Below are positions 3,236 to 32,170 of a stretch of DNA of 34,140 nt, one piece after another. The stretch lies in IMG/VR virus record IMGVR_UViG_3300032326_000087, positions 1-34,140 of that record. One strand, given 5' to 3'. Both the position numbers and the translations under genes were made by a program. Origin of the DNA: a virus. Below the pieces are notes generated by a model. The model worked only from the letters and a program-made list of their open reading frames with translations. It made no database searches and was not told the DNA's origin. The stretch's first letter is position 1. Every line of letters begins with the position of its first letter.

Positions 3236-3236
3236 T

Positions 3237-3657: not shown

Positions 3658-3673
3658 TTGGTTCTCCTTAATT

Positions 3674-3689: not shown

Positions 3690-3695
3690 TATTGA

Positions 3696-4648: not shown

Positions 4649-5365
4649 ATGCTTTTACAGCCAAAAAATTGGGCAGTCTTTCAACATTACAAAGACAGAT
4701 GCCCTCCGTGGATAAAACTACATCGTGACCTGTTAAACGATAGGTCTTATATGCGCTTGCCTATTGCTAGCAAAGCACTAGCACCTATGCTCTGGTTGCT
4801 TGCAAGTGAATCAAAAGATGGTGTTTTTGATGGCTCACTAGATGAGCTAGTCTTTCGTCTGCACATTACCGAGAAAGATTACCAAGCTGGTGTGAAGCCA
4901 TTGATTGATAACAACTTTTTTACTGTTGTTAGCGGAGTGCTAGCAGAACGCTTGCAGACTGCTATCCCAGAGACAGAGAGAGAGACAGAGACAGAGACAA
5001 AGAAAGAGAAGAAGACACTCGGCAAACGCCTCGCTTCTGATTTTAGTTTTCCAAAAGAATGGGAAGAATTCTGCCAAACAGAACGCCCAGAACTTAGCCC
5101 TGTTAAAACCTTTGACCAGTTTAAGGATTATTGGATAGCCCAAGCAGGTCAGAAGGGTGTGAAGCTAGATTGGTTTGCTACTTGGCGTAATTGGGTGAGA
5201 AGCACTAACGCACCTAAACAAAACCCTGCTGACATTGTGAGGCTCACAGTTCCGAGCAAAAATGAGCCTGACCCTGCTTTAGAAAAGATTAAAGCAGATG
5301 CGAAAAAGGCTGCACCCATGCCAGACTTTGTTCGTCAGTTTGCTCAACAAGTGAGAAAAGCATGA
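4649..5365 (+). CDS. Phage replication initiator / replisome organiser-like protein
   Basis: The 238-residue product starts MLLQPKNWAVFQHYKDRCPP and continues WIKLHRDLLNDRSYMRLP, the typical opening of phage replication proteins with an N-terminal winged helix (residues about 15-100, including SLDELVFRLHITEKDYQAGV). A charged linker of alternating E/T then K (about 110-125) leads to a C-terminal domain rich in W (SFPKEWEEFCQTERP, KDYWIAQAG, LDWFATWRNWVRS), often seen where such proteins contact helicase or loader. It probably binds the origin and recruits the host replisome. The ATG at 4649, six bases after GAGG, is preferred to an upstream TTG. No helicase or loader gene follows in the usual place, so host DnaB/DnaC would be used. 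The family call is by overall pattern. Confidence 0.75.
   Translation: MLLQPKNWAVFQHYKDRCPPWIKLHRDLLNDRSYMRLPIASKALAPMLWLLASESKDGVFDGSLDELVFRLHITEKDYQAGVKPLIDNNFFTVVSGVLAERLQTAIPETERETETETKKEKKTLGKRLASDFSFPKEWEEFCQTERPELSPVKTFDQFKDYWIAQAGQKGVKLDWFATWRNWVRSTNAPKQNPADIVRLTVPSKNEPDPALEKIKADAKKAAPMPDFVRQFAQQVRKA
4969..5018 (+). repeat. Purine-rich GAGACA repeat tract inside the replication gene
   Basis: About 50 bases are almost only A and G on the plus strand, with repeats of the unit GAGACA and GAGAGA. They encode the E/T/K linker of the replication protein. In lambda-like phages the origin lies inside the initiator gene, so this tract is a candidate origin element; it could also simply encode a flexible linker. 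Confidence 0.5.
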
Positions 5366-5368
5366 ACT

Positions 5369-5599
5369 TTGAATGGCCTACAAATGACTGCATCAGAATT
5401 AGAACACTTCAAGGACTGCGAAGCGAAAGAGTGGATACGCAGATTCAACAAAAAGAAATTGATGATTGGCTCAAGCAAAGCATTGCTCTGGTGGCAGGGA
5501 GTGTGCGTGGACTTGGAACGAATCAGAGGAAAGTCAGATACTTTGCTTTTGAGGGACAGAATGACGAGGTTACGAAATGAGGAGAGCAGCAAGAGTTGA
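5369..5599 (+). CDS. Hypothetical protein, 76 residues (DUF7696-like pattern)
   Basis: The product reads MNGLQMTASELEHFKDCEAK, then EWIRRFNKKK, WWQGVCVDLERIRGKSD and LLRDRMTRL. The pattern WW..V..D(I/L)E..RG...LR.RM recalls small Burkholderiales phage proteins of the DUF7696 type, a recollection and not a search result. Function is unknown; a helical basic protein is predicted. A competing frame at 5362-5580 overlaps almost all of it: that frame has tidy ATGA junctions at both ends but a less protein-like sequence. Starts at 5369 or 5384 are both possible. It lies between the replication gene and the VRR-NUC gene and overlaps the latter by 23 bases. Confidence 0.55.
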   Translation: MNGLQMTASELEHFKDCEAKEWIRRFNKKKLMIGSSKALLWWQGVCVDLERIRGKSDTLLLRDRMTRLRNEESSKS

Positions 5600-5843
5600 T
5601 GCAACACAAGAAGCCATCGTAAGCGCACTAAGGGCGGCAGGGGCATATGTATGGGTCATTGGTCTGCCAGTTGACCTTTTGGTTGGCTACAAAAACCACA
5701 CGTTCTTGGTTGAGTGCAAATCAGGCCCCAGAAAGCGTTTAACGAAGCTACAAGCAGACTTTTTCGAGAATTGGTCAGGTAGTACCTTGGCAAGAATAGA
5801 TTGCCCAGAAGCAGCATTAAGAATGATAGGAGTAGTCAAGTGA
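5577..5843 (+). CDS. VRR-NUC domain nuclease
   Basis: The 88-residue product is a stand-alone VRR-NUC domain of the PD-(D/E)XK superfamily: an N-terminal helix (ATQEAIVSALRAAGAYVWV), PVDLLVG with the metal-binding D33, and LVECK with E46 and K48, followed by the helix LTKLQADFFENW. VRR-NUC proteins of phages act as structure-selective nucleases, for example on Holliday junctions or flaps; here a role in resolving replication or recombination intermediates is likely. Catalytic residues are intact. The gene follows the replication protein region closely, and its stop overlaps the GTG of the next gene (GTGA). Confidence 0.85.
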   Translation: MRRAARVDATQEAIVSALRAAGAYVWVIGLPVDLLVGYKNHTFLVECKSGPRKRLTKLQADFFENWSGSTLARIDCPEAALRMIGVVK

Positions 5844-6172
5844 AAGCACCTTACCGAGCGATAGAGTACATCATTGAAAATTCATGCAAATTTGCCGAGG
5901 CAAAGGCTCAAAGGGTTTTTATAGAAAATTACTTGCGTACAAAAAAATCTTTGTTGATGAAAGAGGCTATGGCAAGAGGCATAGATTCTGGTGTAGCACA
6001 AGAACGTGAGGCTTATGCTCACCCAGAGTACGAAGAATTATTAAGAGGCTTACAAGAGGCTACCATTCGTGAGGAAACCCTTAAATACATGATGATTGCT
6101 GCCCAGATGAAAGCCGACATATGGCGGTCTGAGCAAGCTAGTGAGCGTCTTGGCGTAAAAACTACGGAGTAG
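5840..6172 (+). CDS. Hypothetical helical protein, 110 residues
   Basis: The GTG at 5840 overlaps the stop of the VRR-NUC gene and has an AGGAG site about seven bases upstream, which decides the start over an earlier in-frame TTG. The product is highly helical and charged: KAPYRAIEYIIENSCKFAEA, AKAQRVFIENYLRTKKSLLM, and a C-terminal part YMMIAAQMKADIWRSEQASE. I recall similar C-termini in other phage proteins but know no function. It ends the replication segment; the next gene has its own promoter. Confidence 0.65.
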   Translation: MKAPYRAIEYIIENSCKFAEAKAQRVFIENYLRTKKSLLMKEAMARGIDSGVAQEREAYAHPEYEELLRGLQEATIREETLKYMMIAAQMKADIWRSEQASERLGVKTTE

Positions 6173-6194
6173 GGAAAGTACCTAGTAAATACTT

Positions 6195-6258
6195 TGTTTA
6201 GTTTGCTATACTTACGTCAGCCCAAGCAATTCGCAAGGGTACTTTTAAGGAATAAATA
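6195..6258 (+). promoter_or_regulatory. Early promoter and leader module, plus strand (copy B)
   Basis: TGTTTA at 6195-6200 is followed by an extended -10 element (TG at 6204-6205, TATACT at 6207-6212). The start of transcription should lie near 6219, giving a leader of about 40 bases that ends TTTTAAGGA before the ATG at 6259. The block is a near copy of 3885-3950 on the opposite strand, including the TCAGCCC and AGCAA words in the leader. Confidence 0.75.
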
Positions 6259-6510
6259 ATGAAATACGAATTTGACACAACTACTGGCGAAGGTTCTGTA
6301 ATCGTTACTGTCGTGATGACATACGAGCGTGACGAAGAAGGCACTTATAACGAGAACATTGACGATGTGATTTACGAAAAGGTGTCTTTGATGGGACTCT
6401 TTACTGACGCACAGTTTAAAGAATTAGAGATGGAAGGCACAATGAGACTGACCAGCCACTTACTCGCTGAATCTGACCATGCCAAGATTATTGCTTACGA
6501 GCATGAGTAA
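6259..6510 (+). CDS. Acidic early protein, 83 residues
   Basis: An AAGGA site lies eight bases before the ATG. The product is strongly acidic: about 20 D/E against about 6 K/R, with a beta-rich N-terminal half (KYEFDTTTGEGSVIVTVVMT then DDVIYEKVSLMGLF) and a helical end. It is transcribed first from promoter copy B, so it should be made early and strongly. Small acidic early proteins of phages often inhibit host enzymes or mimic DNA; that is a possibility and not a finding. No family recognised. Confidence 0.65.
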   Translation: MKYEFDTTTGEGSVIVTVVMTYERDEEGTYNENIDDVIYEKVSLMGLFTDAQFKELEMEGTMRLTSHLLAESDHAKIIAYEHE

Positions 6511-6589
6511 GTTTTGGAAGTTAATTCTTGTAGGGCTGACTGCTTTCTGGGCAGCAGTCCTTTCTTTACTAAGGTTTTGGTATGACTGA
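6503..6589 (+). CDS. Single-pass membrane microprotein, 28 residues
   Basis: The ATG lies inside the end of the 83-residue gene (eight-base overlap) and the stop overlaps the next gene by eight bases. The sequence MSKFWKLILVGLTAFWAAVL is one hydrophobic helix followed by a short polar end (SLLRFWYD). It parallels the 30-residue membrane peptide of the minus-strand operon in size and layout, though not in sequence. Overlaps on both sides support it; no function known. Confidence 0.5.
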   Translation: MSKFWKLILVGLTAFWAAVLSLLRFWYD

Positions 6590-6839
6590 ACTAAGTTTAT
6601 TTGAAAAAGCAATGGGCTGGCGCAAGCGTCAGATGGTTGCAAGCCAAGTGGATAGAAACGAAATAATCGAAAAGATACGCAATGAGACTATTGAGGAAGT
6701 TGCAAAAGAAATAGAAAAATTTGATATGTTTGGCAAAGACACTATTTCAAGTTTTACCATTGTTATCAGGAATATGAAGGTTTGTCCTCCGTGTAATAAC
6801 AACTGTAATCAGGGTAGAGACTGCCCTTCTAGGGGGTAA
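6582..6839 (+). CDS. Hypothetical protein with cysteine-rich tail, 85 residues
   Basis: An AAGG site lies before the ATG at 6582. The N-terminal two thirds is a long charged helix (SQVDRNEIIEKIRNETIEEV, AKEIEKFDMFGKD), then FTIVIRNMK. The C-terminal tail has four cysteines: CPPC at about 68-71, then CNQGRDC (about 75-81), which could hold a metal ion. Similar CxxC/C-rich short tails occur in small phage proteins I recall, without a known function. Confidence 0.65.
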   Translation: MTELSLFEKAMGWRKRQMVASQVDRNEIIEKIRNETIEEVAKEIEKFDMFGKDTISSFTIVIRNMKVCPPCNNNCNQGRDCPSRG

Positions 6840-6841
6840 GC

Positions 6842-7006
6842 ATGATATTGAACCAAGGAAAACTAGCAGGCGGCTTGGCTGATGAATTTATTGCAGTAAT
6901 TCGCAAGTATGACGAAACGCTTTACATGTCCACAGTTATAGGCGTGCTTGAGCTTGTCAAGCAACAACTAATACAAGAAAACTTGGAGCAAGACGAAGAT
7001 GACTAA
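6842..7006 (+). CDS. Hypothetical acidic protein, 54 residues
   Basis: Starts two bases after the previous stop; the ribosome site (AGGGGG) lies at the end of that gene. The product MILNQGKLAGGLADEFIAVI continues as a helix and ends with a strongly acidic tail (QENLEQDEDD). The stop overlaps the next start by eight bases (ATGACTAA). No family is known to me; gene status rests on tight packing and the ribosome site. Confidence 0.6.
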   Translation: MILNQGKLAGGLADEFIAVIRKYDETLYMSTVIGVLELVKQQLIQENLEQDEDD

Positions 7007-7469
7007 AGACGAAGCATTGAAACTGGCGCTAGATGCCTTGGAAACATCTATGTATCCGCAACAAAAACAATTGCAAGCCATTACCGCCATAAAAGAATCC
7101 TTGGCCAACGAAGCCCTCGAAAAGATGGCAGAGAACGCCAGAGAGTTAGGGCTGGACTATGAGCCAGCACAGGAGCCTGTGGCGTGGAAACTTGTGCCAA
7201 GAGATGCAACCGATGAAATGCTTAAAGCAATGGATGAATGTTCAACAGAAGGGTATGACGAGCGTTTATATGCTGGTCATGCGGCATCTGTTTTCATGGC
7301 GGCTGTTGATGCTGCTCCCGCCCCACCACAGCGCACATGGGTTGGGCTGACAGAGGATGAGATTCTTTCAATTTCGGCTGATTGTGCGTCTTCTCATCAA
7401 CACACGGACATCCACTTTGCCAGAGCCATTGAAGCCAAACTAAGGAGTAAAAATGAGAGTAAGAATTAG
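6999..7469 (+). CDS. Conserved phage protein of unknown function, 156 residues
   Basis: The product starts MTKDEALKLALDALETSMYP and QQKQLQAITAIKESLANEAL, an opening I recall from many small proteins of proteobacterial phages. The middle has EPVAWKLVPRDATDEMLKAM and a proline-alanine linker (DAAPAPPQRTW), and the end has a helix with VGLTEDEILSISADCASS and HFARAIEAKLRSK. It seems to be a string of short modules and no catalytic motif stands out. It overlaps the preceding gene by eight bases and is followed by a well-spaced AAGGAG for the next. Confidence 0.7.
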   Translation: MTKDEALKLALDALETSMYPQQKQLQAITAIKESLANEALEKMAENARELGLDYEPAQEPVAWKLVPRDATDEMLKAMDECSTEGYDERLYAGHAASVFMAAVDAAPAPPQRTWVGLTEDEILSISADCASSHQHTDIHFARAIEAKLRSKNESKN

Positions 7470-7623
7470 AAAAGACGCTGATGGCGCATGGAGTGTCGAG
7501 ACTAAAAAATGGTATGAGTTTTATTGGACTTACCGCAAATGTATGCTTGGAGATAACGCAGAAAAGAGAGCTTTGGAATATGCTCGTCTATTGCTAAACC
7601 CTGTAATCATAGAAATTACATGA
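7453..7623 (+). CDS. Hypothetical basic protein, 56 residues
   Basis: AAGGAG lies seven bases before the ATG, inside the end of the preceding gene. The product MRVRIRKDADGAWSVETKKW then YEFYWTYRKCMLGDNAEKRA reads like a short beta hairpin followed by a helix, rich in aromatic and basic residues, and ends NPVIIEIT. The stop overlaps the HNH gene by ATGA. Function unknown. Confidence 0.65.
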   Translation: MRVRIRKDADGAWSVETKKWYEFYWTYRKCMLGDNAEKRALEYARLLLNPVIIEIT

Positions 7624-7877
7624 ACAACAGACCCAATAACAGGGAACGACTCCACTTGGCAAAGATTAAAGAAATGCCTTGTGGGGTCTGTAACGCTTCT
7701 CCTCCAAGCGATGCACACCACATTGTTCAGCATAATCAATACTTATGTATTCCTTTATGCAAAGATTGCCATCAGGGGTCATTTAATGGAATACATGGGC
7801 AAGCTAGGATTTGGAAGGTTATGAAGCTGGATGAGATGGATGTTTTAAATCTAACGCTTGCAAATCTTTTTAGATAG
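7620..7877 (+). CDS. HNH-type endonuclease-like protein
   Basis: The 85-residue product has a zinc-finger HNH pattern: CGVC (C21, C24), then the core DAHHIVQHNQ with paired histidines, and LCKDCHQGSF with a second CxxC and following H. The order CxxC-HH-CxxCH is that of HNH or Ref-like nucleases, which cut DNA with one metal ion. The second half (GIHGQARIWKVMKLDEMDVL) is helical. It is the last gene before the strong terminator at 7909, and is coupled to the gene before it. It is short and stand-alone, as many phage HNH proteins are; a role in packaging-linked cutting is possible but the gene is separated from terminase by about 3 kb. Confidence 0.75.
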   Translation: MNNRPNNRERLHLAKIKEMPCGVCNASPPSDAHHIVQHNQYLCIPLCKDCHQGSFNGIHGQARIWKVMKLDEMDVLNLTLANLFR

Positions 7878-7908
7878 AATGGACGCACTCAGTTGCCATT
7901 GAGACTTT

Positions 7909-7935
7909 AGAGGGACTTGTTCCCTCTTTTTTTTT
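7909..7935 (+). terminator. Rho-independent terminator ending the early block
   Basis: A perfect seven-base stem AGAGGGA/TCCCTCT with a five-base loop (CTTGT) is followed by a run of nine T (7927-7935). It lies about 30 bases after the HNH gene and separates early from late genes. Confidence 0.9.
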
Positions 7936-7945
7936 ATGAGATAAT
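7917..7945 (+). promoter_or_regulatory. Candidate late promoter overlapping the terminator
   Basis: TTGTTC (7917-7922) and GATAAT (7940-7945) are spaced by exactly 17 bases and would start transcription about 15-20 bases before the ATG at 7969. The -35 box lies in the loop and right arm of the terminator hairpin. It is a candidate only; no other promoter is apparent before the late genes. Confidence 0.4.
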
Positions 7946-7968
7946 AAATAAACTCCATAGGGATAACC

Positions 7969-8475
7969 ATGTCTGGTTTACTTGAGCCATCCGTAAAAAT
8001 TGAGATTGAGATACAAAGCCAAGAGAAAAAAGGCGAAGCGTGTCCAGTTGCCACAGGTGACGTAGAAGTCAATCTTGAGTGTCGCCAGAAAGCCATCGAC
8101 AAGGCTAACTATGGCCCAATGAATCCCAATGAGCCAAACATGGACTATTGGCGTGACATTTCTAAGGCTTGGAGAATCTCTCCAGCACAGGCTAAAAAGT
8201 CTCGTTGCGGAAACTGCGCTGCCTTTATCCAAACCCCTAAGATGCTTGCTTGCATTGAATCTGGTCTTGAGATGAACGGCACAGAGATGGACGCATGGGA
8301 AGTCATTGACGCTGGCGACTTAGGCTATTGCGAAGTATTTGACTTTAAGTGTGCTTCCAAGAGGACTTGTGAGGCATGGATTAGTGGTGGGCCAATAACC
8401 GAGGAAGAAAATGATGGGAACGACAAATCAGCAAGCGTTGGAGATGATGCAGAAACTTATGCAGAAGAAGACTAA
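7969..8475 (+). CDS. Conserved cysteine-rich phage protein, 168 residues
   Basis: Residues about 70-140 form a conserved block: AKKSRCGNCAAFIQTPKMLA, then CIESG, DAWEVIDAGDLGYCEVF and FKCASKRTCEAW. Six cysteines (C80, C83, C95, C121, C128, C134) are arranged as CxxC plus four single ones, which suits a bound metal or a small iron-sulfur cluster; the block is one I recall from marine and freshwater phages near terminase or portal genes. The N-terminal segment (residues 1-50) and the acidic tail (EEENDGNDKSASVGDDAETY) look flexible. It is the first gene of the late block and probably a virion or packaging accessory. No biochemical role is known to me. Confidence 0.7.
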   Translation: MSGLLEPSVKIEIEIQSQEKKGEACPVATGDVEVNLECRQKAIDKANYGPMNPNEPNMDYWRDISKAWRISPAQAKKSRCGNCAAFIQTPKMLACIESGLEMNGTEMDAWEVIDAGDLGYCEVFDFKCASKRTCEAWISGGPITEEENDGNDKSASVGDDAETYAEED

Positions 8476-8536
8476 ACCCATGCCAGAGCGTGGTGAGCGT
8501 ACTGCAAAGAACAAAGCAAAGAAGCCTAAAAAATGA
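8411..8536 (+). CDS. Basic microprotein overlapping two genes, 41 residues
   Basis: The ATG at 8411 has a GAGGA site five bases upstream and lies inside the end of the cysteine-rich gene in another frame (65-base overlap). The product MMGTTNQQALEMMQKLMQKK ends in a lysine-rich tail (KNKAKKPKK). The stop overlaps the next ATG by four bases. A strongly basic peptide could contact DNA in the particle. Coupling on the 3' side and the ribosome site support it. Confidence 0.55.
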   Translation: MMGTTNQQALEMMQKLMQKKTKPMPERGERTAKNKAKKPKK

Positions 8537-8703
8537 AAATGACAAAAGCTGGTCAGAAAAAAGTTGGCAAAGTGATGGGTGAGTACAAAGAAGGTACTCT
8601 GCACTCTGGCAAAAGTGGTAAGGTTGTAAAAAACCCAAAGCAAGCTATTGCTATTGCTATTAGCGAAGGTGCTAAACAAATGGGTAGATACAAAGGTAAA
8701 TAA
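8533..8703 (+). CDS. DUF6496-like basic protein, 56 residues
   Basis: The product contains KVMGEYKEGTLHSGKSGKVV followed by NPKQAIAIAISEG and ends GRYKGK. The order K-V-M-x-E-(F/Y)-K-x-G-T-L-H-S-G and KQAIAIA(I/L)SE is the signature of the DUF6496 family found in phages and bacteria, whose role is unknown. It is very basic (about 14 K/R in 56 residues), fitting DNA contact. It starts with an ATGA overlap on the preceding gene. Confidence 0.75.
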   Translation: MKMTKAGQKKVGKVMGEYKEGTLHSGKSGKVVKNPKQAIAIAISEGAKQMGRYKGK

Positions 8704-8705
8704 TC

Positions 8706-11096
8706 ATGGCAGATTTAGGCGCAGCATTTGGCTTTTATCCGCAGTTAAACAGGCGCAGACAAGGTAGCCCTGCTGATTCTGCCAATTTGCCTATTGATGT
8801 TTTACGAGGACGTTTGGCTGGCTTGCTAGGCGCACCTGCTGATATTGCTAATTTACTTAGGTCACCTAGTCCAACAGAGATGTTTGGTGATGTTAGTTAT
8901 GAAGCACCAGCGCAGTTTCCTTACACAACAGAGAAGTTTTTAAAAGATTTACCACTTGCGCCAACATCTAGGGTTGGTCAGGTAGCAGGTCAAGCTGCGT
9001 CATTTGTTCCGCTAAACCCAATGCCAGCCGTTAGAGGTGTGCAAAAGGTAGGACAAGTAGTAGGAGAAGAACTGGCAGCTACTATGATGGGTCAGCGTCC
9101 TAACAGCATGATGAGTAAGGTAGTGCCACAGCCATTGTTTGCTGTTGCCCCAGAGCAAGGCTTATTGGCTACCAAAACAGAGCCTATAGAAAGCCTATTA
9201 CAAGTTAAGCCACAAGCACCAGTTTCTGACATTGGTTTCTATTCCGCTACTGAGCAAGCTGCTTTAAATCTTGGCAGAAACAAGGGAACTGGTCAGTCTT
9301 TCATTAACGACTTGATGAAAGCACCTGATGTTAAGAAGGAAGAACTGCAATTCACAGGATTGGAAGACTTCCTAAGAGACAAGCCTAATGTTACTAAACA
9401 AGAGGTTCAAGACTTCTTGGCTAACAATCGTGTGGATGTTCAAGAAGTAACTTATGGGGCGCAAATAGCTGAAAACCCTGTAGGCATTGCTAAACGCAAA
9501 GAAGTCTTTGACAAGTACGAGCCAGAAATTCAAGCGTTATATAAGGAAATGGACAATCCTAGATATAAGCTAGTTAATAAAGGAATGACTGGAGAAGAAT
9601 ACAATCGTGGTGTTGTCTTGCAAAATAGAACTTTTAGAGGTGAGCCATTAACAGACCAAGAGAAATTTGAATTAGATGACATTTTGAGTCGTCTTGATAG
9701 CATTACTGTTAAAGAATTTGATAATGTTGAAGAAGCAAGAAAAGCCTATTTTGGAATGAATCAAGAAGAAAAATTAAAACATTCGATTAGACCTGTAAAA
9801 AGTCCAAGTGAATTACAACAAGAAATAAATACCATTCAAAATATTAGAGATTCAGAAGCTGATGCTGCTTATGTAGTTCCAGAATCTACGCCTACTAAAT
9901 TTGGTAAATACCAATTAGCTGGTGGTGAGAACTATCGTGAGATATTGCTGACATTGCCAGAAGCAATGCCTAATACAGCACTGGAAATAGAACGATTTAC
10001 AAAACGCATGGAAACTATGCGTGAATTACAAAATGAATTTGCCAATGCAGGTGATATGGAAAAAGCTATTTCATTTGCATCAAAAGCTGACGATTTACAA
10101 GCATATATCAAGCAATTAGAAAAAATACCTGTTACTAAGCAAACAGAAAACTTTGAATCATCTCACTTTGACCAGCCTAATATTTTAGCCCATATGAGGG
10201 TCAATGACCGCATTGATGCTGATGGCAAGAAGATGCTATTGGTTGAGGAAATTCAATCTGATTGGCATCAGGCTGGCAGAGAGAAGGGTTACAAAACCAA
10301 AGAAAGTTTGGAAAAATGGTACGCCCAAAACAAACTTGATGATGACCCATCTTTTGCTGACTTAAATAGTGAGCAAAGAAGCGTTATTGAGCGTAATAGA
10401 AGTGCTGGAATGGGTGGTGATAATGCAGTACCAGACGCACCATTTAAAGACACATGGTATCAGTTGGCACTAAAGCGACTAACCAAGTACGCTGCCGAAA
10501 ACGGATATGAGCGTATTGGTTTGACTACTGGCAAGCGTCAAGTTGAAAGATTTGCAGATGAATTGCGCCAAAATGTTGACGAAATTGCTTTTTCTTCTGG
10601 GTATCCAAGTAAAGATATTACAACAATTAGTGCATCCCAAAATGGCAGACCAACATTTACAGGAACTGTAAAAGACGGAAAGTTTATTGATGGTCAAGCA
10701 CGAGGTAAAACAGTAGAAGAAGTTTTAGGCAAGTCAATGGCAAAGCAGATTGCAGAAAAAGAATCTGGGGTGCTTAAAGGTGATGACCTGACCATTGGTG
10801 GCGAAGGAATGAAGAAATACTATGACGAGATTTATCCTAAGTTTTTGGATAAGTACGGCAAAAAGTATGGTGCAAGCGTAGGTGAAACACAGATAACGAC
10901 AGATTACGCTAGGGATGCAAGCGGAATTCCTGCACAGCGTCCATCAAAAGAAACCATCCGTTATCTAGACATTACTCCTCAAATGAAAGAGGGAACATCT
11001 AAGGGTCAACCTTTATTTGCTGCTACTCCGTTATTACCAGCAACAAGCCTACTAGACGAAGAAAAGCGCAAAGAGATTACAAGTCTGTTAGAATAA
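8706..11096 (+). CDS. Large polyvalent-type phage protein (796 residues)
   Basis: This long protein lies just before terminase. Residues about 1-160 are low in complexity and hydrophobic in places (GRLAGLLGAPADIANLL, AGQAASFVPLNPMPAVRGV). The middle is charged and helical. A conserved core follows: GGENYREILLTLPEAMPNT (about 404), SSHFDQPNILAHMRVND (about 490), LLVEEIQSDWHQAGREKGY (about 510) and DTWYQLALKRLTKYAAENGY with ERIGLTTGKRQ (about 582-613). I recall the EIQSDWHQ..R..GY and W..LALKR....A..NGY..I..T.G motifs from large polyvalent-protein associated domains in phages, where such proteins are thought to be packaged and injected. The C-terminus has GGEGMKKYYDEIYPKFLDKY, also recurrent in that group. 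No catalytic residue can be named. It may be a virion-borne effector. Confidence 0.7.
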   Translation: MADLGAAFGFYPQLNRRRQGSPADSANLPIDVLRGRLAGLLGAPADIANLLRSPSPTEMFGDVSYEAPAQFPYTTEKFLKDLPLAPTSRVGQVAGQAASFVPLNPMPAVRGVQKVGQVVGEELAATMMGQRPNSMMSKVVPQPLFAVAPEQGLLATKTEPIESLLQVKPQAPVSDIGFYSATEQAALNLGRNKGTGQSFINDLMKAPDVKKEELQFTGLEDFLRDKPNVTKQEVQDFLANNRVDVQEVTYGAQIAENPVGIAKRKEVFDKYEPEIQALYKEMDNPRYKLVNKGMTGEEYNRGVVLQNRTFRGEPLTDQEKFELDDILSRLDSITVKEFDNVEEARKAYFGMNQEEKLKHSIRPVKSPSELQQEINTIQNIRDSEADAAYVVPESTPTKFGKYQLAGGENYREILLTLPEAMPNTALEIERFTKRMETMRELQNEFANAGDMEKAISFASKADDLQAYIKQLEKIPVTKQTENFESSHFDQPNILAHMRVNDRIDADGKKMLLVEEIQSDWHQAGREKGYKTKESLEKWYAQNKLDDDPSFADLNSEQRSVIERNRSAGMGGDNAVPDAPFKDTWYQLALKRLTKYAAENGYERIGLTTGKRQVERFADELRQNVDEIAFSSGYPSKDITTISASQNGRPTFTGTVKDGKFIDGQARGKTVEEVLGKSMAKQIAEKESGVLKGDDLTIGGEGMKKYYDEIYPKFLDKYGKKYGASVGETQITTDYARDASGIPAQRPSKETIRYLDITPQMKEGTSKGQPLFAATPLLPATSLLDEEKRKEITSLLE

Positions 11097-24128: not shown

Positions 24129-25508
24129 ATGGCTGGACTATTAGACATTTTTGGAACTAGCGGTGCAGACACAATGGGTCTGCTTGGTATGTCACCTGCT
24201 GACATTGCTCGTAATCGTGAAGACGCACAAGCACAAGCCTTGTATGCCCTAGCAGGGCGTTTATTCCAAGGTGGTAACACAGGGCAGTCTATTGTTGAGG
24301 GCTTACAGCGTGGTCAGCAAGCCTATAAAGGCGGTATGCAAGACACATTGCAAAGCCAGTTACAGAATGTTCAGTTGGCTGACATGATTCGTAAGCGCAA
24401 ACTAGAACAACAACAACTAGCTGAACAACAACGAATTCAAGGTGTTATCCAAGGTGCTGTAACCAAGCCTCAAGAGATTTATGGCGAGGACATTATGGGT
24501 CAGCGAGTAGGCGAAGGCATGACTGCTGGTGGCTTTGATTTGGCTCGTGCTGCGCCACAACTTATGGGTTCTGCTGAAGGACGTAAGACTTTAGCTGAGT
24601 TGGTTGCTGCAACAAAAGCTATGGGTGGAGAAACCACTTCATTAGCAGAAGGTGCAAAACTTATTCGTGTTAATCCTATTACTGGAAAAGTAGAAACTGT
24701 TGCTGAAGGTGCGCCAAAGCGTGAGCCAATACCTAGTGCAATTGCTGAATACAACTTAGCAAAAGACCAAGGATTTGCAGGTACTTTCTTAGATTACGAA
24801 AAATCCAAAAAGCCGTTTCAGTATCAAGATGTTGGTAACGCAATTATTCAATTGGATTCAAATGGCAAGGAAGTTTCACGCATCCCTAAAGGACGTGCGC
24901 CAGAAGGCCCAGTAAACTTCCAGACAATTGAAACTGACCAAGGATTGATGGCTTTTAATCCAAGAACATTGCAAATGACTCCAGTATTGGGTCAAGATGG
25001 GAAACCACTAACCAAGTCTGGAAAGCCAACTGAAGGTGAAACTAATGCTGCTGGATTTGCATCTCGAATGGTTGCAGCAGAAGCAATTACATCAAAACTA
25101 GCTACAGGGGCTGCGCCTAAGTTTGGTGAGGCTGTACTAAGTGCTATTCCTTTAATTGGCAAAACAATTCCAGAGGTTATTCCTCAAGCTATTGGTGGAT
25201 TGTCTTCAGACCGCAGGCAATACTTGCAAGCTGCTAATAATTTTATTCGTGCTAACTTGCGTAAAGAATCAGGCGCAGCAATTGGCGTGGATGAGTGGAC
25301 TGCTGAGTTTATTAACTACTTCCCTCAATACAATGATGATGAGCAAACAATTAAGAACAAAGCAATTTTCCGTAATATTTTGACTCAGAACATGGTTAAC
25401 GCTGGTGGCAAATCATTTAAAGCACCAAGCATGGAAGCACCAGAATCAATGACTGACGCATACGGATTAAATCCTAGACTGCGTAATTCTTTGCGTGGAG
25501 GTAGGTAA
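24129..25508 (+). CDS. Putative internal virion / DNA ejection protein B (459 residues)
   Basis: The N-terminal part is Q/A-rich (LAGRLFQGGNTGQSIVEGLQ, QSQLQNVQLADMIRKRKLEQ). The centre has short strands (NAIIQLDSNGKEVSRI, LMAFNPRTLQMTPVLGQDGK). The C-terminal helical block ANNFIRANLRKESGAAIGVD then EFINYFPQYNDDEQTIKNKA is one I recall from internal virion proteins of other podophages (N.(I/L)R..LRKESGAAI...E). It probably joins the neighbouring long proteins in an ejection complex. The stop shares a base with the next ATG (TAATG). Confidence 0.7.
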   Translation: MAGLLDIFGTSGADTMGLLGMSPADIARNREDAQAQALYALAGRLFQGGNTGQSIVEGLQRGQQAYKGGMQDTLQSQLQNVQLADMIRKRKLEQQQLAEQQRIQGVIQGAVTKPQEIYGEDIMGQRVGEGMTAGGFDLARAAPQLMGSAEGRKTLAELVAATKAMGGETTSLAEGAKLIRVNPITGKVETVAEGAPKREPIPSAIAEYNLAKDQGFAGTFLDYEKSKKPFQYQDVGNAIIQLDSNGKEVSRIPKGRAPEGPVNFQTIETDQGLMAFNPRTLQMTPVLGQDGKPLTKSGKPTEGETNAAGFASRMVAAEAITSKLATGAAPKFGEAVLSAIPLIGKTIPEVIPQAIGGLSSDRRQYLQAANNFIRANLRKESGAAIGVDEWTAEFINYFPQYNDDEQTIKNKAIFRNILTQNMVNAGGKSFKAPSMEAPESMTDAYGLNPRLRNSLRGGR

Positions 25509-27544
25509 TGGCTTACGAGAATGTTGAGCGAGTTCGACAAAACCTTATCACGATGGTTGATAAGAACGCACCAGTTAACGATATTAACAAGTACCTAAAA
25601 GAAGAAGGTTTCACTCAAGACTCTTTTGCTAAAGCACTAGACCTTGTAAAACAATCTGGTGGTAGAACTTCTGAGTATGGTGCAGGACGTTCATTGGCTC
25701 AAGGCGCAACATTTGGTTTTGCAGATGAACTTGAATCATTGATGAAATCATTATCTGGTCAAGGTACTTACGAGCAAAACTTAGCTGCACTTGAACTTGC
25801 TAAACAAAAGTATGGTCAAGAAAATCCTAAAACTGCATTGGCTACTGAGATTACAGGTGGTCTGCCGTACGCACTATTGCCATTCTTGGGGACTGCTAGA
25901 TATGCACAAATGGCTAGAGACGCTGCACCATTGGTTCGTGCTGGAGTTACGGCTGGCGCATCTGCTGTCACAGGCGCACTTACTGGCGCACTCGGTGGTG
26001 CTGGTGCTGCGGGGGTTGGTGAGCGTTTGGCTGGCGCACAAGCTGGTGGTACTCTTGGGGGTCTTGTAGGCGGTGCTGCGCCTGTTCTTACCAAAGGCAT
26101 TGGTGCTGCTGGTAGTAAAGTTGTTGACGTAACAAGTGGAATTCCTGTTCTTCAACAAGTTGGCAAAGCGGTAGGTGTGGCTACTGGTCAAAGCGTTGAC
26201 TATGCAAATCGTGCAAAAGCTAAACTTTTAGAGGCTTTGTATCGTGATAAAGTAAGCCCTGCTGACTTAGAGAAGATGATTCTTGCTTCTGCTAATTTAG
26301 AAAAGACAATTACTCGCACTACTAAACCAGTAGGAATTGCTGATATTGCTGGTGAAAACGTCAGGTCACTTGCTGATGTTGCTCAGAAGTATCCAAGTAC
26401 AGCCAGACAAGTAGCTAAGACCGCACTTGAAGAACGAGCCGCAGGTCAGGGAGAACGAATCCAAGCTGATATTTCTAAATACTTGGGTGGCTTTACAGAC
26501 CCATTTGAATACACAGCAGCTATTGCTCAAAGACAAAAACAAGTGTCTTCACCACTTTACCAAAAGGCTTATGCTTATGGCGAGGTAACAGAGCCTAGCG
26601 TATTGAAGTATTTAGAACTACCACAGTTTAAAACTGCTACAAAAAAGGCTCAAGAATTGTTAGCGGCTGAAGGACGTACAGTTGATATGTCTCGTCCTAC
26701 TGTTGAAACTCTTGATAACATTAAGCGTGGTCTTGATGTTCTTATTGATGCCGAAACAGACGCCTTTGGCAAAGTTTCTAAACTAGGAACTATTTATAAA
26801 AACAAGAAAAACGAATTCTTGTCTGAATTAGATACTGCTGTTCCTGACTTTGGTAGGGCTAGAGCAGCATTTGCGGGTGAGGCAGAATTACTTGATGCTA
26901 CCAAGTTAGGTAAAGACTTCTACAAACAGACAGCATCAGAAGCAAATAGAACATTTGCAAAGCTATCTGCATCTGAGCAAGAGGCTTATAAAGTCGGTGC
27001 TTTGGACGCTGTAAAAGAAAAGATTACAACTGCTAAAGATACTGCCGATATTCGTAAGCGCATATTTGGTTCACCAGCAGAGCGTTCACGAGTTTCTTCA
27101 TTGTTCCCAGATGATGCTACTTTTAAGCAGTTTGAAAAAGACATGATGACTGAATCAATGATGCGTAAGACTCAAGAAAAAATCTTGGGTAATTCTGCAA
27201 CATTTGAGAGGCAGATTGCTGGTCAAGGATTGGAAGCAGAACCTAGCTTTATTGGGCAACTAATTGAGCAAGGCCCACTCAGGGGAACACTAGGTTATTT
27301 GAAGGCTCAAGGTCAAGGCGTAGCTGGTCAAACAGCAGAGGAACTTGGCCCAATGCTATTCAAACTTGGTGACCCAAGAGCAAATATTGAAACTTTAAAA
27401 GCCTTGAGTGCTTATGAAAAATACTTGCTAGACCTAGAAGCTAAAAAGGCTGCTGGATTAACTGGCGCATCTACAATGACAGGTCTTCTAAATACTGAAA
27501 AACCATATCGTGTAGATTTAACTGGAATGGCTAACCCCGACTAA
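25508..27544 (+). CDS. Putative large internal virion / DNA ejection protein C (678 residues)
   Basis: The N-terminus is helical and ends in SLAQGATFGFADELESLMKS, a motif I recall from phage internal proteins. Residues about 110-200 are a glycine/alanine-rich hydrophobic region (LRAGVTAGASAVTGALTGAL-type repeats, GGLVGGAAPVLTKGIGAAG), suited to inserting into the cell membrane. The remaining 450 residues are helical and charged, with FAKLSASEQEAYKVGALDAV and many K/E pairs. As the longest of the three, it is the best candidate for the trans-envelope channel component. No lysozyme or transglycosylase motif was found by eye. Confidence 0.7.
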   Translation: MAYENVERVRQNLITMVDKNAPVNDINKYLKEEGFTQDSFAKALDLVKQSGGRTSEYGAGRSLAQGATFGFADELESLMKSLSGQGTYEQNLAALELAKQKYGQENPKTALATEITGGLPYALLPFLGTARYAQMARDAAPLVRAGVTAGASAVTGALTGALGGAGAAGVGERLAGAQAGGTLGGLVGGAAPVLTKGIGAAGSKVVDVTSGIPVLQQVGKAVGVATGQSVDYANRAKAKLLEALYRDKVSPADLEKMILASANLEKTITRTTKPVGIADIAGENVRSLADVAQKYPSTARQVAKTALEERAAGQGERIQADISKYLGGFTDPFEYTAAIAQRQKQVSSPLYQKAYAYGEVTEPSVLKYLELPQFKTATKKAQELLAAEGRTVDMSRPTVETLDNIKRGLDVLIDAETDAFGKVSKLGTIYKNKKNEFLSELDTAVPDFGRARAAFAGEAELLDATKLGKDFYKQTASEANRTFAKLSASEQEAYKVGALDAVKEKITTAKDTADIRKRIFGSPAERSRVSSLFPDDATFKQFEKDMMTESMMRKTQEKILGNSATFERQIAGQGLEAEPSFIGQLIEQGPLRGTLGYLKAQGQGVAGQTAEELGPMLFKLGDPRANIETLKALSAYEKYLLDLEAKKAAGLTGASTMTGLLNTEKPYRVDLTGMANPD

Positions 27545-27552: not shown

Positions 27553-27831
27553 ATGGCAAAGACAAAAATTAGTGAGTTTAGCAGTAACCCTGCAAATAAC
27601 ACAGATATTGATGGAATTAACATTGCAGAGGGCTGTGCGCCATCTGGAATTAACGATGCTATTAGAGAGTTAATGGCTCAGTTAAAGGATTTACAAGCAG
27701 GTACTAGTGGAGATACAATCCCTATAACTGCTGGTGGTACAGGCGCAAGTACAGCAGGTGCAGCATTAACAGCACTTGGTGGCGCATCAACAGGAAAAGC
27801 TATCGCTATGAGCATGGTGTTTGGAGGCTAG
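27553..27831 (+). CDS. Short tail fibre-like protein, 92 residues
   Basis: The product begins MAKTKISEFSSNPANNTDID and GINIAEGCAPSGINDAIREL, the N-terminal attachment motif of many phage fibre proteins ((N/T)TDI(D/G)GINIAEGC.PSGIN.AIRELMAQ), followed by ITAGGTGASTAGAALTALGG. Usually a long fibre follows; here it ends after GKAIAMSMVFGG. It may be a complete small adaptor onto which the separate adhesin proteins are built, or a remnant of a longer fibre. Confidence 0.75.
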   Translation: MAKTKISEFSSNPANNTDIDGINIAEGCAPSGINDAIRELMAQLKDLQAGTSGDTIPITAGGTGASTAGAALTALGGASTGKAIAMSMVFGG

Positions 27832-27897: not shown

Positions 27898-28272
27898 ATG
27901 GCTGCACCAAATATTGTCGCTGTCGCAACTATCACGGCAAAGACTGCATACGCAACACCCTCAAACACTACGGCTAACGTATTGCTTGCAAACGCTGCCT
28001 CATCTGGCAAGGTTTTCAAGGTCAATATGGTCATTGCTGCTAACGTGGATGGCACAAGTGCTTATGACACAACTGTAGCGGTGAATACTGCTGCTGATGG
28101 CTCTGGCACTTCATACCCATTGGCTTCAACTGTTTCTGTTCCTCCAGATGCTTCTTTGATTGTCTCTGACAAGTCAACAGCGTTTTACTTGGAAGAAAAC
28201 AAATCAGTTGTTGTTACCAGTAGCACAGCGTCAAAAATAGCTTATACAGTTTCCTACGAAGAACTCTCATAA
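27898..28272 (+). CDS. Virion structural protein of a type seen in T4-like cyanophages, 124 residues
   Basis: The product starts MAAPNIVAVATITAKTAYAT, then VLLANAASSGKVFKVNMVIA, VSVPPDASLIVSDKSTAFYL and EENKSVVVTSSTASKIAYTV. I recall close relatives (MAAPNIV..ATITG..., ...PIYLEEN..) among T4-like cyanophage virion proteins. All-beta; probably part of a fibre or particle decoration. A GGAG site lies before the ATG. Its presence with podovirus genes points to exchange of adhesion modules between phage types. Confidence 0.7.
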   Translation: MAAPNIVAVATITAKTAYATPSNTTANVLLANAASSGKVFKVNMVIAANVDGTSAYDTTVAVNTAADGSGTSYPLASTVSVPPDASLIVSDKSTAFYLEENKSVVVTSSTASKIAYTVSYEELS

Positions 28273-28282: not shown

Positions 28283-29155
28283 ATGTCCAAAAGAGTAGGT
28301 GGAATTCTAAGTGCTGGGCTTAACGGCATTAACTACCCTGTGACAGCGGTGGAATACTTATGTGTGGCTGGCGGGGGTGCGGGAGGCGGCACTATTGGCG
28401 GTGGTGGTGGTGCTGGTGGTTTATTAACCGCTACTGGTTATGCCGTTACTATCGGGTCAGCAATCACGATAACTGTTGGTGCGGGCGGTGCTGGTTCTAC
28501 AAGCAATGGCGTACAAGGTTCAAACTCTACTCTTGTTGGTGGAACAACCATTACAGCGACTGGTGGTGGCTATGGTTCTGTTTCTGACCAAGTAGGTGGT
28601 AATGGTGGCTCTGGTGGTGGTGCTGGTGGTGAAACTGGCACTTCTAGAGCCGCAGGAACTGGCACTTCTGGGCAAGGTTTTGCTGGCGGTGCTAACGGAA
28701 CTGCAAACAAATATGGCTCTGGTGGCGGTGGCGGTTCTGGTTCTGTAGGTATTGCTGGAACTGCATCTGTTAGCGGTAGTGGTGGTACAGGCACAACATC
28801 ATCTATTTCTGGTTCTGCAATTCAATACGCTGGAGGTGGCGGCGGTGCATCTTCACAAACTGGTGGCGGTACTGTTGCTGGTCTAGGTGTGGCTGGTGGT
28901 GGTGATGGCGGTACTTATGGTGGTACTGCTGGTAAAACTGGCCTTGCAAATACAGGCTCTGGTGGTGGTGGCGGTGGATACACAGGAAGCGGTAGTGCTT
29001 ATAACGCTGGCGGCTCTGGCGGCTCTGGCATCGTAATCATCCGCTACCCATCTTACTTAGCCCCTGCTACATCAACAACAGGCTCACCAGAAACTTATGT
29101 CACAGGCTTTTGGCGTGTGTACAGATTCGTTGCCTCTGGCACGATTACTTTCTAA
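28283..29155 (+). CDS. Glycine-rich putative adhesin 1 (290 residues)
   Basis: Anchor type I (MSKRVGGILSAGLNGINYPV) leads to VEYLCVAGGGAGGG, then about 200 residues dense in G, S and T with runs such as GGNGGSGGGAGG, GSGGGGGSGSVGIAGTASVS and TGLANTGSGGGGGGYTGSGS. The end is GGSGGSGIVIIRYPSYLAPA with a terminal GFWRVYRFVASGTITF. Long glycine runs of this kind form polyglycine-II sandwiches in phage receptor-binding proteins. It is one of four paralogues in this array. Receptor binding is inferred from composition and place. Confidence 0.8.
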   Translation: MSKRVGGILSAGLNGINYPVTAVEYLCVAGGGAGGGTIGGGGGAGGLLTATGYAVTIGSAITITVGAGGAGSTSNGVQGSNSTLVGGTTITATGGGYGSVSDQVGGNGGSGGGAGGETGTSRAAGTGTSGQGFAGGANGTANKYGSGGGGGSGSVGIAGTASVSGSGGTGTTSSISGSAIQYAGGGGGASSQTGGGTVAGLGVAGGGDGGTYGGTAGKTGLANTGSGGGGGGYTGSGSAYNAGGSGGSGIVIIRYPSYLAPATSTTGSPETYVTGFWRVYRFVASGTITF

Positions 29156-29163
29156 GGGTAGAT

Positions 29164-30045
29164 ATGGCTACAGGATTATTTACTCTTAAACAAGTTAACC
29201 AAGCACTTGCACAAAAGGCATGGAGTGGTACGCAGAAAACTAACTATGTTGAATATTTAGTTGTTGCGGGTGGTGGAGGTGGTGGCTATTCCGCTAGTGG
29301 CGGTGGCGGTGCGGGAGGTTTGCTAACAGGGATTTTGCCTGTTGCTACTGGTGTTTCTATTACTGCGACTGTAGGCGGTGGAGGTGCTGGTGGAACTAGT
29401 GTTAATGGCGTTAATGGGGTTGCTTCTGTCTTTTCAACTATCACGGCTACGGGCGGTGGAGGTGGTGGATTTGGTGGTCTTGGTACATCTTCAGCTGGTA
29501 GTAGTGGTGGCTCTGGTGGCGGTGGAGGTGGCGATGGAACTGCTACTGTTTCAGTAGGAGGTTCTGCCGTATCAGGACAAGGTAACACAGGAGGGAGTTC
29601 CTCTGCTACAACTTCAAATTACAACGCTGGAGGCGGTGGCGGTGCAGGGACTGTCGGTTTAAATGCCCCATCTGGTTCTAATGCGGGTGTAAATGGCGGT
29701 GCGGGTATTGCATCTGCAATTTCTGGCTCTGTTGTTACTTATGCTGGTGGTGGTGCGGGAGGCACAAACGCAACTACTTATGGTACTGGTGGTGTTGGGG
29801 GTGGTGGCAATGGTGGTGGTAGCGGAGGCTCACCAACTGCTGGTGGCACAAATACTGGTGGTGGCGGTGGAGGTAGTGACTATGCTGCAAATGGCGCAGC
29901 AGGAGGCTCTGGTATTGTCATCATTCGCTACCCAAGCACATTTGCTGATGCTGCAAGCGTTTCAGGCACACCAACTCCAGTAAAAACAACAGCAAACGGG
30001 TATACGATTTATACTTTCATTGCTTCTGGAACTATCACCTTTTAA
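29164..30045 (+). CDS. Glycine-rich putative adhesin 2 (293 residues)
   Basis: The start at 29164 (MATGLFTLKQVNQALAQKAW) is preferred to an earlier in-frame ATG inside the previous gene. Anchor type II (TL.Q.NQAL....WSG) is followed by YVEYLVVAGGGGGGY and the glycine-rich domain (FGGLGTSSAGSSGGSGGGGG and SGGSPTAGGTNTGGGGGGSD), ending GGSGIVIIRYPSTF and YTIYTFIASGTITF. It shares the ends with adhesin 1 but has a different anchor, like adhesin 4. A separate gene for each adhesin, all with ribosome sites, suggests all are made. Confidence 0.8.
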   Translation: MATGLFTLKQVNQALAQKAWSGTQKTNYVEYLVVAGGGGGGYSASGGGGAGGLLTGILPVATGVSITATVGGGGAGGTSVNGVNGVASVFSTITATGGGGGGFGGLGTSSAGSSGGSGGGGGGDGTATVSVGGSAVSGQGNTGGSSSATTSNYNAGGGGGAGTVGLNAPSGSNAGVNGGAGIASAISGSVVTYAGGGAGGTNATTYGTGGVGGGGNGGGSGGSPTAGGTNTGGGGGGSDYAANGAAGGSGIVIIRYPSTFADAASVSGTPTPVKTTANGYTIYTFIASGTITF

Positions 30046-30053
30046 GGACAAGC

Positions 30054-30926
30054 ATGAGCAATTTATTAGGTGGATATTTGTCGGCAACATTTAACCCTTT
30101 ATCTGGCGCACCTACGACTGTTGAATATCTAGTGGTAGCTGGTGGGGGTGGGGGTGGTTGGAACTTTGGCGGTGGAGGTGGTGCGGGTGGTTTATTAACT
30201 GCGGCATCGTTTGCTGTTGCTACTGGTTCTGTTTTGACAGTTACTGTTGGTGGTGGCGGTGCGGGTTCAAGCACAACTGCCGCTGGTAGCAATGGACAGG
30301 ATTCTGTTTTTAGCTCTATTACCGCAACTGCTGGTGGAGGTGGTTCTAGTAATGGCTATCAAAATGGCTCAACTGGCGGCTCTGGTGGTGGTGGTGGTGG
30401 CCCTGATTCAAACTCAACAACCATAACTGGCGGTTCTGGCACTTCTGGTCAAGGCTTTGCTGGTGGCAATGGCTCAAGATTAACTACTAATGGCAGTCAA
30501 GGTGCTGGCGGTGGCGGTGGCGCAGGGTCTATTGGCGTGGCAAATAGTTCGGGACAAGCGGGTGCTGGCGGTGCTGGTCTTTGCTCAAGCATTACTGGTC
30601 AAAGAGTGTTTTATGCTTGTGGTGGTGGTGGTGCGGGTTACACACCATTTAGTGTTCAAGCGGGTCTTGCTTGTACTGGTGGTGGTAATGGTTCATCTTT
30701 GGATGCACAAGCAGGATTTAATGCATTAGCAAATACTGGCTCTGGTGGTGGTGGAAATGCTGGTGGCGGTGTCGGTGTGGGTGGTAATGGAGGCTCTGGC
30801 ATTGTCATTATTCGTTACCCTGCATCACAATCAGCGCCAACTGCAACAACTGGTTCACCACAAATCAACTACGCAGACAATTATCAAATTTACACTTTTA
30901 CGTCCTCTGGGACAATCACTTTCTAA
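30054..30926 (+). CDS. Glycine-rich putative adhesin 3 (290 residues)
   Basis: Anchor type I again (MSNLLGGYLSATFNPLSGAP), then VEYLVVAGGGGGGW and the glycine-rich domain with GGSGTSGQGFAGGNGSRL and GAGGGGGAGSIGVANSSGQ. It contains two cysteines (CSSITGQRVFYACGGG) and another in GLACTGGGNG, unusual in this family. It ends GGSGIVIIRYPASQSAP and YQIYTFTSSGTITF. Length equals adhesin 1. The variable middle suggests different receptor specificity from its paralogues. Confidence 0.8.
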   Translation: MSNLLGGYLSATFNPLSGAPTTVEYLVVAGGGGGGWNFGGGGGAGGLLTAASFAVATGSVLTVTVGGGGAGSSTTAAGSNGQDSVFSSITATAGGGGSSNGYQNGSTGGSGGGGGGPDSNSTTITGGSGTSGQGFAGGNGSRLTTNGSQGAGGGGGAGSIGVANSSGQAGAGGAGLCSSITGQRVFYACGGGGAGYTPFSVQAGLACTGGGNGSSLDAQAGFNALANTGSGGGGNAGGGVGVGGNGGSGIVIIRYPASQSAPTATTGSPQINYADNYQIYTFTSSGTITF

Positions 30927-30936
30927 GGAGAATATT

Positions 30937-31287
30937 TTGAGCCATTTTGCACACATCACAAACGGCATCGTTGACCAAGTAATCGTCATTGACGCTGAAA
31001 CCTTGGCTTTAGGTCATTGGGGTAGCCCATCTGAGTGGGTTCAAACAAGCTATAACACTCATGGCAACCAACATCCTGAGAACCGCCCATTGCATAAGAA
31101 CTATGCTGGCATTGGCTACACATGGGATGGAACAGGCTTTGCCCCTCCACAACCATTTGCATCTTGGACTAAAAACTCTACGACATATCTGTGGGATGCA
31201 CCAACACCTATGCCTGTTGAAGAAGGAAAATTCTATCGCTGGGAAGAATCTACATTGTCATGGGTTGAAGTAACTCAAGGGGCTTAA
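30937..31287 (+). CDS. Virion-type protein with TTG start, 116 residues
   Basis: A full AAGGAG lies six bases before a TTG start (30937), giving MSHFAHITNGIVDQVIVIDA. The body has TSYNTHGNQHPENRPLHKNY, AGIGYTWDGTGFAPPQPFAS and TPMPVEEGKFYRWEESTLSW. I recall close relatives among T4-like cyanophage structural proteins (NYAGIGYTYD..(D)AFIPPQPFPSW). It is placed between adhesins 3 and 4 and shares no anchor with them; it could be a chaperone or cap for the adhesins, or an independent particle protein. Confidence 0.75.
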   Translation: MSHFAHITNGIVDQVIVIDAETLALGHWGSPSEWVQTSYNTHGNQHPENRPLHKNYAGIGYTWDGTGFAPPQPFASWTKNSTTYLWDAPTPMPVEEGKFYRWEESTLSWVEVTQGA

Positions 31288-31288
31288 C

Positions 31289-32170
31289 ATGGGCCAATAT
31301 TCTGGGATGTGGACACTAAGCCAAGCGTCCCAAGCCATTAAAGACAACAACTGGACAGGACTGCCTCCGCAGAATGTGGAGTATTTGGTTGTTGCTGGTG
31401 GTGGTGGTGGTGGTGGTTATGGTGGCGGTGGTGGTGGTTCTGGCGGTTTACTAGCAGGTTTTTCTGGTGTAACTGCGGGTACTCAATTGTTTGTAACTGT
31501 TGGTGGTGGTGGTGCGGCAGGAGTAGGTAGCACAGGAACTAACGGAACTATTGGGTTTAACTCTGTTTTAATTGCTACAAGTAACGGGGCTTATACAGGA
31601 AATCTTGTAGCCACAGGCGGTGGCGGTGGAATGGGTGGCGGTTCTTCTACGCTTCAAGCTGGTGGAGGTTCTGGAGGAGGAGCTGCTGGTTCTAATTACT
31701 CAGGCAATGGTGCTTCTGGTATATCTGGTCAAGGCAATTCTGGTGGTGCTTCTGGAGGAGCATCTGGATTTAGTGGTGGAGGTGGAGGCGGTGCGGGTAC
31801 TGTTGGAATAAATGGTGGTACTACGTTTGGTGGTAATGGTGGTGCTGGCATCGCTAGTGCCATATCTGGCTCAGTTAATGTATACGCTGGAGGTGGAGGG
31901 GGTTCATCTTACCTACCCTACCCAGTTGGTTCTGGTGGGGCTGGTGGTGGCGGTGCTGGCAATACAACTTCTGGTACTGCAAACACAGGCGGTGGTGGCG
32001 GTGGCGGTATCAATCTTGCAAATGGCGGCACAGGCGGTAGCGGTATCGTAATCCTCCGCTATCCAGACACATTTATAGCCGCTACAAGCACAACAGGTTC
32101 ACCAACAATTACTGTGGCTGGTGGGTTTAGAGTTTATAAATTTACGGCATCTGGCTCTATTACTTTCTGA
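31289..32170 (+). CDS. Glycine-rich putative adhesin 4 (293 residues)
   Basis: Anchor type II (MGQYSGMWTLSQASQAIKDN then NWTGLPPQNVEYLVV) is followed by AGGGGGGGYGGGGGGSGGLL and the glycine-rich domain, with the most regular GGT codon runs of the array (31395-31440). It ends GGSGIVILRYPDTFIAA and FRVYKFTASGSITF. It starts one base after the TTG-start gene ends. It is closest in anchor to adhesin 2, so genes 1-2 and 3-4 look like a duplicated pair with an inserted gene. Confidence 0.8.
   Translation: MGQYSGMWTLSQASQAIKDNNWTGLPPQNVEYLVVAGGGGGGGYGGGGGGSGGLLAGFSGVTAGTQLFVTVGGGGAAGVGSTGTNGTIGFNSVLIATSNGAYTGNLVATGGGGGMGGGSSTLQAGGGSGGGAAGSNYSGNGASGISGQGNSGGASGGASGFSGGGGGGAGTVGINGGTTFGGNGGAGIASAISGSVNVYAGGGGGSSYLPYPVGSGGAGGGGAGNTTSGTANTGGGGGGGINLANGGTGGSGIVILRYPDTFIAATSTTGSPTITVAGGFRVYKFTASGSITF

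Follow-up and report, generated by a model that had tools for sequence, protein, structure and literature searches.

Four glycine-rich putative adhesins form a recurrent six-gene phage cassette whose variable cores seem to be exchanged slot by slot

Why does one phage carry four similar glycine-rich genes almost side by side, and what keeps the four distinct? The question is raised by positions 28283-32170 of IMG/VR virus record IMGVR_UViG_3300032326_000087, a 34,140-base record analysed over its full length (hereafter the window), which carries genes for a terminase, portal, scaffold, major head protein and stabilization protein and which we read, going by its relatives, as a short-tailed phage (podovirus). 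A first-pass annotation, made from the letters alone, had described the region as an array of four glycine-rich adhesin paralogues of 290-293 residues. All four do match PF21722 (Gly_rich_2; E 1e-19 to 1e-24), with scores of 71-88 bits against a gathering cut-off of 24.3 and matches that run from model positions 7-15 to 225 of 226; the PHROG label for the family is 'unknown function'. We regard it as likely that the locus is a six-gene receptor-recognition cassette with four adhesins, in which cores are replaced slot by slot and the cassette as a whole is exchanged between phages.

The same arrangement recurs well outside the window. We collected nearly 200 loci (given L numbers) from scans of viral contigs with a 116-amino-acid (aa) gene of the array, a glycine-rich profile and the tail-fibre base. 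After removal of duplicates, at least 28 IMG/VR contigs besides the window carry four glycine-rich genes in identical order: a 124-aa gene, slot 1 (N-terminal anchor of type I), slot 2 (type II), slot 3 (type I), the 116-aa gene and slot 4 (type II). In 28/28 testable loci, the gene immediately before slot 1 is homologous to the 124-aa gene. The pattern used to find type II anchors misses slot 4 in 20 loci, and three-slot patterns counted that way are four-slot. This biased sample included glycine-rich arrays with two, four, seven and eight genes. A tblastn search with slot 3 against cultured phages gave zero matches, most likely because low-complexity filtering masked the core, and the neighbouring 116-aa and 124-aa genes were used as queries in its place.

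In the window, all six genes are on the plus strand. The 124-aa gene (27898-28272), for which Pfam and PHROG searches returned zero matches at E 0.01, is followed by slot 1 (28283-29155, 290 aa; type I anchor 28283-28348, Gly_rich_2 core 28349-29050, slot-specific end 29051-29152), slot 2 (29164-30045, 293 aa; type II anchor 29164-29247), slot 3 (30054-30926, 290 aa; type I anchor 30054-30119), the 116-aa gene (30937-31287, with a TTG start after AAGGAG; phrog_7759) and slot 4 (31289-32170, 293 aa; type II anchor 31289-31375), each of slots 2 to 4 having a Gly_rich_2 core and a slot-specific end of its own. Slot 2 starts at the ATG at 29164, after AAGGG, and the 311-aa open reading frame listed for it begins at a spurious TTG. 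Two of the alignments take slot 2 from 29161, one residue too early, which leaves the result unchanged.

The anchors alternate along the array, as the first-pass annotation had claimed. In the window, anchors 1 and 3 are identical at 9/22 positions (z 4.7) and anchors 2 and 4 at 9/26 (z 8.1), with 0/200 shuffles scoring as high in either case, whereas the four cross pairs (z -0.8 to 1.4) do no better than shuffles. Across 20 complete cassettes, median anchor identity is 0.75-0.90 within the same slot, 0.36-0.41 between slots 1 and 3, 0.37 between slots 2 and 4, and 0.18-0.24 when a type I anchor is compared with a type II anchor. The annotation had proposed to compare anchors, cores and ends separately. 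The pairing of 1 with 3 and 2 with 4 holds for the anchors and also for the cores, whose tree shows a {1,3} versus {2,4} split (SH-like approximate likelihood ratio test, SH-aLRT, 99) with a few cores falling outside their own slot, but it breaks down for the C-terminal ends. These are slot-specific, with same-slot medians of 0.85-1.00, and slot 1 is nearest to slot 4 (0.58), with only 0.42 between slots 1 and 3. Both termini of each adhesin are locked to its slot.

The pairing of anchors and cores would also agree with a recent local duplication within the window phage. We give this explanation next to no credence, because the same slots, with their own conserved anchors and ends, are found in 28 or more further contigs whose backbones differ, so that the duplication must be far older than the window phage. 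Two-slot cassettes give an indication of how the four slots arose. In L094, L110 and L085 the order is 124-aa gene, type I, 116-aa gene, type II, and the genes get their best scores against slots 3 and 4. The four-slot cassette would probably derive from such a two-slot unit, with the chaperone-like gene between type I and type II, plus a second type I/type II pair, in the simplest reading added between the 124-aa gene and slot 3, and we infer that a pair was gained rather than lost. The earlier suggestion that a two-gene unit was duplicated is supported by these two-slot cassettes, while a recent event in the window phage does not agree with the at least 29 contigs that have four slots. The same annotation had the TTG-start gene come to lie between copies 3 and 4. 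We reject its insertion into the array, since the two-slot form already has this gene between type I and type II; under the origin proposed here it would be a part of the original unit.

The carriers of the cassette are otherwise dissimilar. Their flanking genes differ between contigs, and the major head protein of the window matches 6/34 records searched and its portal 7/34, some of them barely, many of these records being partial. One carrier, the 150-kb L115, is a T4-like myovirus with gp23 (E 1e-147) and a tail sheath, and the cassette is therefore present with at least two tail types. From these comparisons of gene content, the cassette probably passes whole between unrelated phages.

Between the constant termini, the cores vary strongly. 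Within a slot, with glycine pairs excluded, median core identity is only 0.44-0.49. Slot 4 has an entropy of 1.11 bits in its core against 0.51 in its anchor and 0.54 in its end; within the core, variable columns group into seven hypervariable segments separated by about 11 glycine motifs. The variation is present even between near-twins: in L149/L091 the major head (capsid) protein is 100% identical to that of the window and the portal 99%, and the cassette cores differ at about 40% of positions with anchors and ends nearly unchanged. Pairwise core identities are bimodal, most falling at 0.3-0.6 and a few above 0.7. Where different phages have an allele in common, they have it in one slot only (slot 2 in L070/L077 and L079/L118, slot 3 in L087/L098, slot 4 in L070/L104 and L089/L090), with the remaining slots at 0.36-0.57. 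The one exception is L070/L071, in which alleles are common to the adjacent slots 1 and 2 and differ in slot 3. Because common alleles are limited to one slot with this one exception, the slots seem to reassort independently, each exchanging cores without regard to the other three. The ratio of nonsynonymous to synonymous substitution (dN/dS) within alleles is about 0.08-0.22, indicating that the alleles are maintained. The same loops can also occur in two slots: slot 2 of L069 and slot 4 of L100 have them in common, each with its own slot framework, anchor and end.

We take recombination to be the probable mechanism of core exchange. Variation limited to short segments in a constant frame could also come from a system devoted to hypermutation or inversion, a diversity-generating retroelement for example. 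We consider such a system very improbable here: a reverse transcriptase (PF00078) was sought in the window and in 15 carrier records, several of them partial, and none was found; inverted repeats suggesting a DNA-inversion switch were sought in the region, and those present are short, imperfect and unconvincing; and near-identical alleles in different phages fit recombination. Free-standing GIY-YIG/HNH endonuclease genes are found among the slots in L077 (6415-7137), L087 (1342-1980), L079 (7334-8838) and L086 (7364-8026), at places that vary from phage to phage. That these homing endonucleases could promote core exchange is speculation.

The predicted fold suggests what the variable loops might do. 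The AlphaFold2 monomer model of slot 4, made from 104 sequences, has a mean predicted local distance difference test score (pLDDT) of 91.6 and contains a TNF-like beta hub with glycine-rich fingers, as in the Pam3 fibre protein gp24. Its best match is the Bxb1 tail tip (9D93 chain Q, Z 14.3 over 168 residues); it also matches Pam3 gp24 (7YPX; Z 11.2, 160 residues, 3.6 Å), the next matches are to the glycine-rich domain of ALK-type receptors (Z ~5), and tailspikes are absent from the fold matches. A helix is predicted at residues 10-18, in the low-confidence N-terminus of the model. The profile-sequence match of the adhesin to Pam3 gp24 is weak (E 0.007), and the gp38 structure 6F45 is absent from the sequence and fold matches returned for the adhesin. 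The layout of the core, glycine motifs with variable segments between them, is that of both T-even gp38, in which conserved glycine motifs alternate with hypervariable loops that bind the receptor (PMC12892980), and Pam3 gp24, whose finger tips are proposed to bind the receptor (PMC9608196). By analogy with these proteins, the four adhesins would have one fold, with glycine-rich fingers extending from a beta-rich hub and hypervariable loops at their tips, and they would be located on the tail and bind receptors.

The glycine-rich, low-complexity composition and the PHROG label would also suit structural proteins that decorate the head or tail and have no receptor role, with core variation being near-neutral drift of low-complexity sequence. 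This we judge to be quite improbable. The glycine motifs and the slot-specific framework are conserved whereas the loops vary, nearly unchanged alleles with low dN/dS are present in different phages, the fold matches are to tail fibre and tail tip proteins, and in other phages the same slots hold lectin-like LamG and SPRY domains.

These lectin-like domains lie beside the glycine core (L114, L115, L036 and L087), the LamG domains with the same tags and ends around them. In L204, L224 and L019, the same anchors, type II included, are joined to unrelated adhesins with propeller-like repeats or FN3-like domains, names taken from sequence reading rather than from a family search. Since the same anchors carry other adhesins, we take them to be docking tags, and this supports, but does not prove, that the tags dock the adhesins onto the tail. 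If the four proteins instead co-assembled into one mixed fibre or brush, they would have a single composite specificity. Type I always comes before type II in classified chains starting at the 124-aa gene, the pair often belongs to the same adhesin family (glycine-rich, propeller-like or FN3-like), and one phage record fuses both tags in a single protein, all of which would suit a mixed fibre. We think it unlikely, as alleles are swapped slot by slot with no matching changes in the partner slots and as slots 2 and 4 can differ greatly in size (528-1099 aa) from their partners. The fused protein, in L232 (phage DSL-LC04; 6017-7702, minus strand), is a glycine-rich protein of 561 aa that starts with a type I tag and goes straight on into a type II tag (MSMRYKGGILSATPP...GVWTLIQQLQAQAAGQWP), and so both tags can occur in one protein.

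The protein encoded between slots 3 and 4 is probably an assembly chaperone for these adhesins. The best structural match of its 116-aa model (pLDDT 85) is the Pam3 fibre chaperone gp25 (7ypx_a; Z 5.5, 54 residues, 2.3 Å), the sole PDB chain with Z >= 2, and the part of gp25 that is matched is the N-terminal beta-sandwich holding the fibre tip. The 116-aa gene adjoins a glycine-rich gene in 52/70 IMG/VR loci and comes directly after one in 7/9 phage records examined, which include Roseobacter phages CRP-207 and CRP-143 and Methylophilales phage Melnitz. The likeness to gp25 is strengthened by this adjacency and, independently, because the cassette adhesin matches gp24, the client of gp25. The widespread family phrog_7759, whose function has so far not been annotated, gains in this way an annotation as a putative adhesin chaperone.

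Phages that have several receptors and modules open to exchange are already known, best from the Ackermannviridae, and so are glycine-rich adhesins (S16, PP01, Pam3). One close likeness is to Pam3 gp24/gp25 (7YPX; PMC9608196), with a beta-rich TNF-like hub, glycine-rich fingers with variable tips and a small chaperone gene. Pam3, however, relies on a single fibre that docks by a long helical domain, whereas the cassette has four paralogues with tags of 22-29 residues and, unlike gp24, its adhesins have a C-terminal extension after the core. T-even gp38 (S16, PP01, T2; 6F45) differs from the cassette in being a single gene whose product caps the gp37 fibre and has a beta-helix domain. The tail tip of mycobacteriophage Bxb1 belongs to a siphovirus, an actinobacterial phage, and, to judge by the fold match, is not a multi-gene variable cassette. 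The Ackermannviridae tailspikes TSP1-4 (CBA120, S117) provide four receptor-binding proteins per phage with exchangeable modules (PMC8432352, PMC8825819), and they resemble the cassette in that their N-terminal assembly parts are conserved and their receptor modules can be exchanged, some of these modules being common to different slots. They are large unrelated tailspikes with XD assembly domains from one myovirus family, and serve as a working analogue only; the cassette has small glycine-rich adhesins (290-293 aa) and six genes, and is common to podoviruses and a T4-like myovirus. We found no description of the six-gene cassette in the literature searched, which took in few subscription papers. 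Known multi-receptor phages are mostly families within one phage group, whereas this compact, position-locked cassette recurs across unrelated backbones and combines constant, putative docking tags with exchangeable specificity modules.

Taken as a receptor-recognition cassette, the locus would work as follows. The short N-terminal tag, of two types with two variants each, would determine which position each adhesin takes within the cassette and, probably, which tail partner it docks to, and each adhesin would keep its conserved C-terminal end. The 124-aa product would probably be a co-inherited base or connector component and the 116-aa product the assembly chaperone. Recombination would diversify host recognition by swapping one slot's core at a time between unchanged tags and ends, and the whole cassette would also be swapped among unrelated phages. 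Several points weigh against this picture. The carriers are for the most part metagenomic contigs, with a risk of incompleteness or misassembly, and most loci were gathered via the 116-aa gene, so that frequencies are biased. Independent reassortment is based on about eight allele-sharing pairs, and many inner branches of the core tree are poorly supported. In absolute terms, the likeness to gp25 is weak (Foldseek E 0.062, TM 0.36, Z 5.5 over 54 residues), and the 116-aa model, unlike gp25 itself, is missing the C-terminal helical trimerisation domain.

A wider reading would have the phages draw on a shared adhesin pool: unrelated lineages with different tail types would carry one and the same four-slot cassette and reassort slot-specific core alleles slot by slot, and a single particle could then show as many as four specificities, docked by the two kinds of tag. 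We hold this possible, though we would not lean towards it. Near-twins with different cores, and one core in two slots, form a natural series that separates tags, cores and partners for testing.

Upstream of the cassette in the window lies the tail-fibre base protein (27553-27831, plus strand; 'MAKTKISEF...GKAIAMSMVFGG'), which is 99% identical in L149. It is a shortened form of 92 residues, and in relatives with single large fibres 200-800 residues follow the same N-terminus. Further 5', the 459-aa and 678-aa genes (24129-27544) are about 50% identical or replaced in L149, and since its head protein and portal are 99-100% identical, the exchanged region extends past the cassette. Spring-water phage genomes are the closest described relatives of the window (70% for its stabilization protein); Methylophilales phage Venkman (49%) and Pelagibacter phage HTVC106P (35%) are more distant. 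No glycine-rich array was found in the closest relatives scanned via the 678-aa upstream protein; their fibre slot holds other fibres, and L019 has FN3-like adhesins in a type I/type II pair of two slots and L021 one glycine-rich protein of a different kind.

Some large phages have longer arrays built in the same way. L053, a 202-kb contig, has eight glycine-rich genes at 1-9624 and L041 seven at 5-7894, with other short N-terminal tags. In L131 and L136, glycine-rich genes with the common tag MPILGTSASQNTKSFL lie on both strands of one contig. Ahead of the terminase of the window, a 796-aa protein (8706-11096) matches phrog_7348, which is annotated as endolysin (E 2e-23), the best stretch being residues 452-617.

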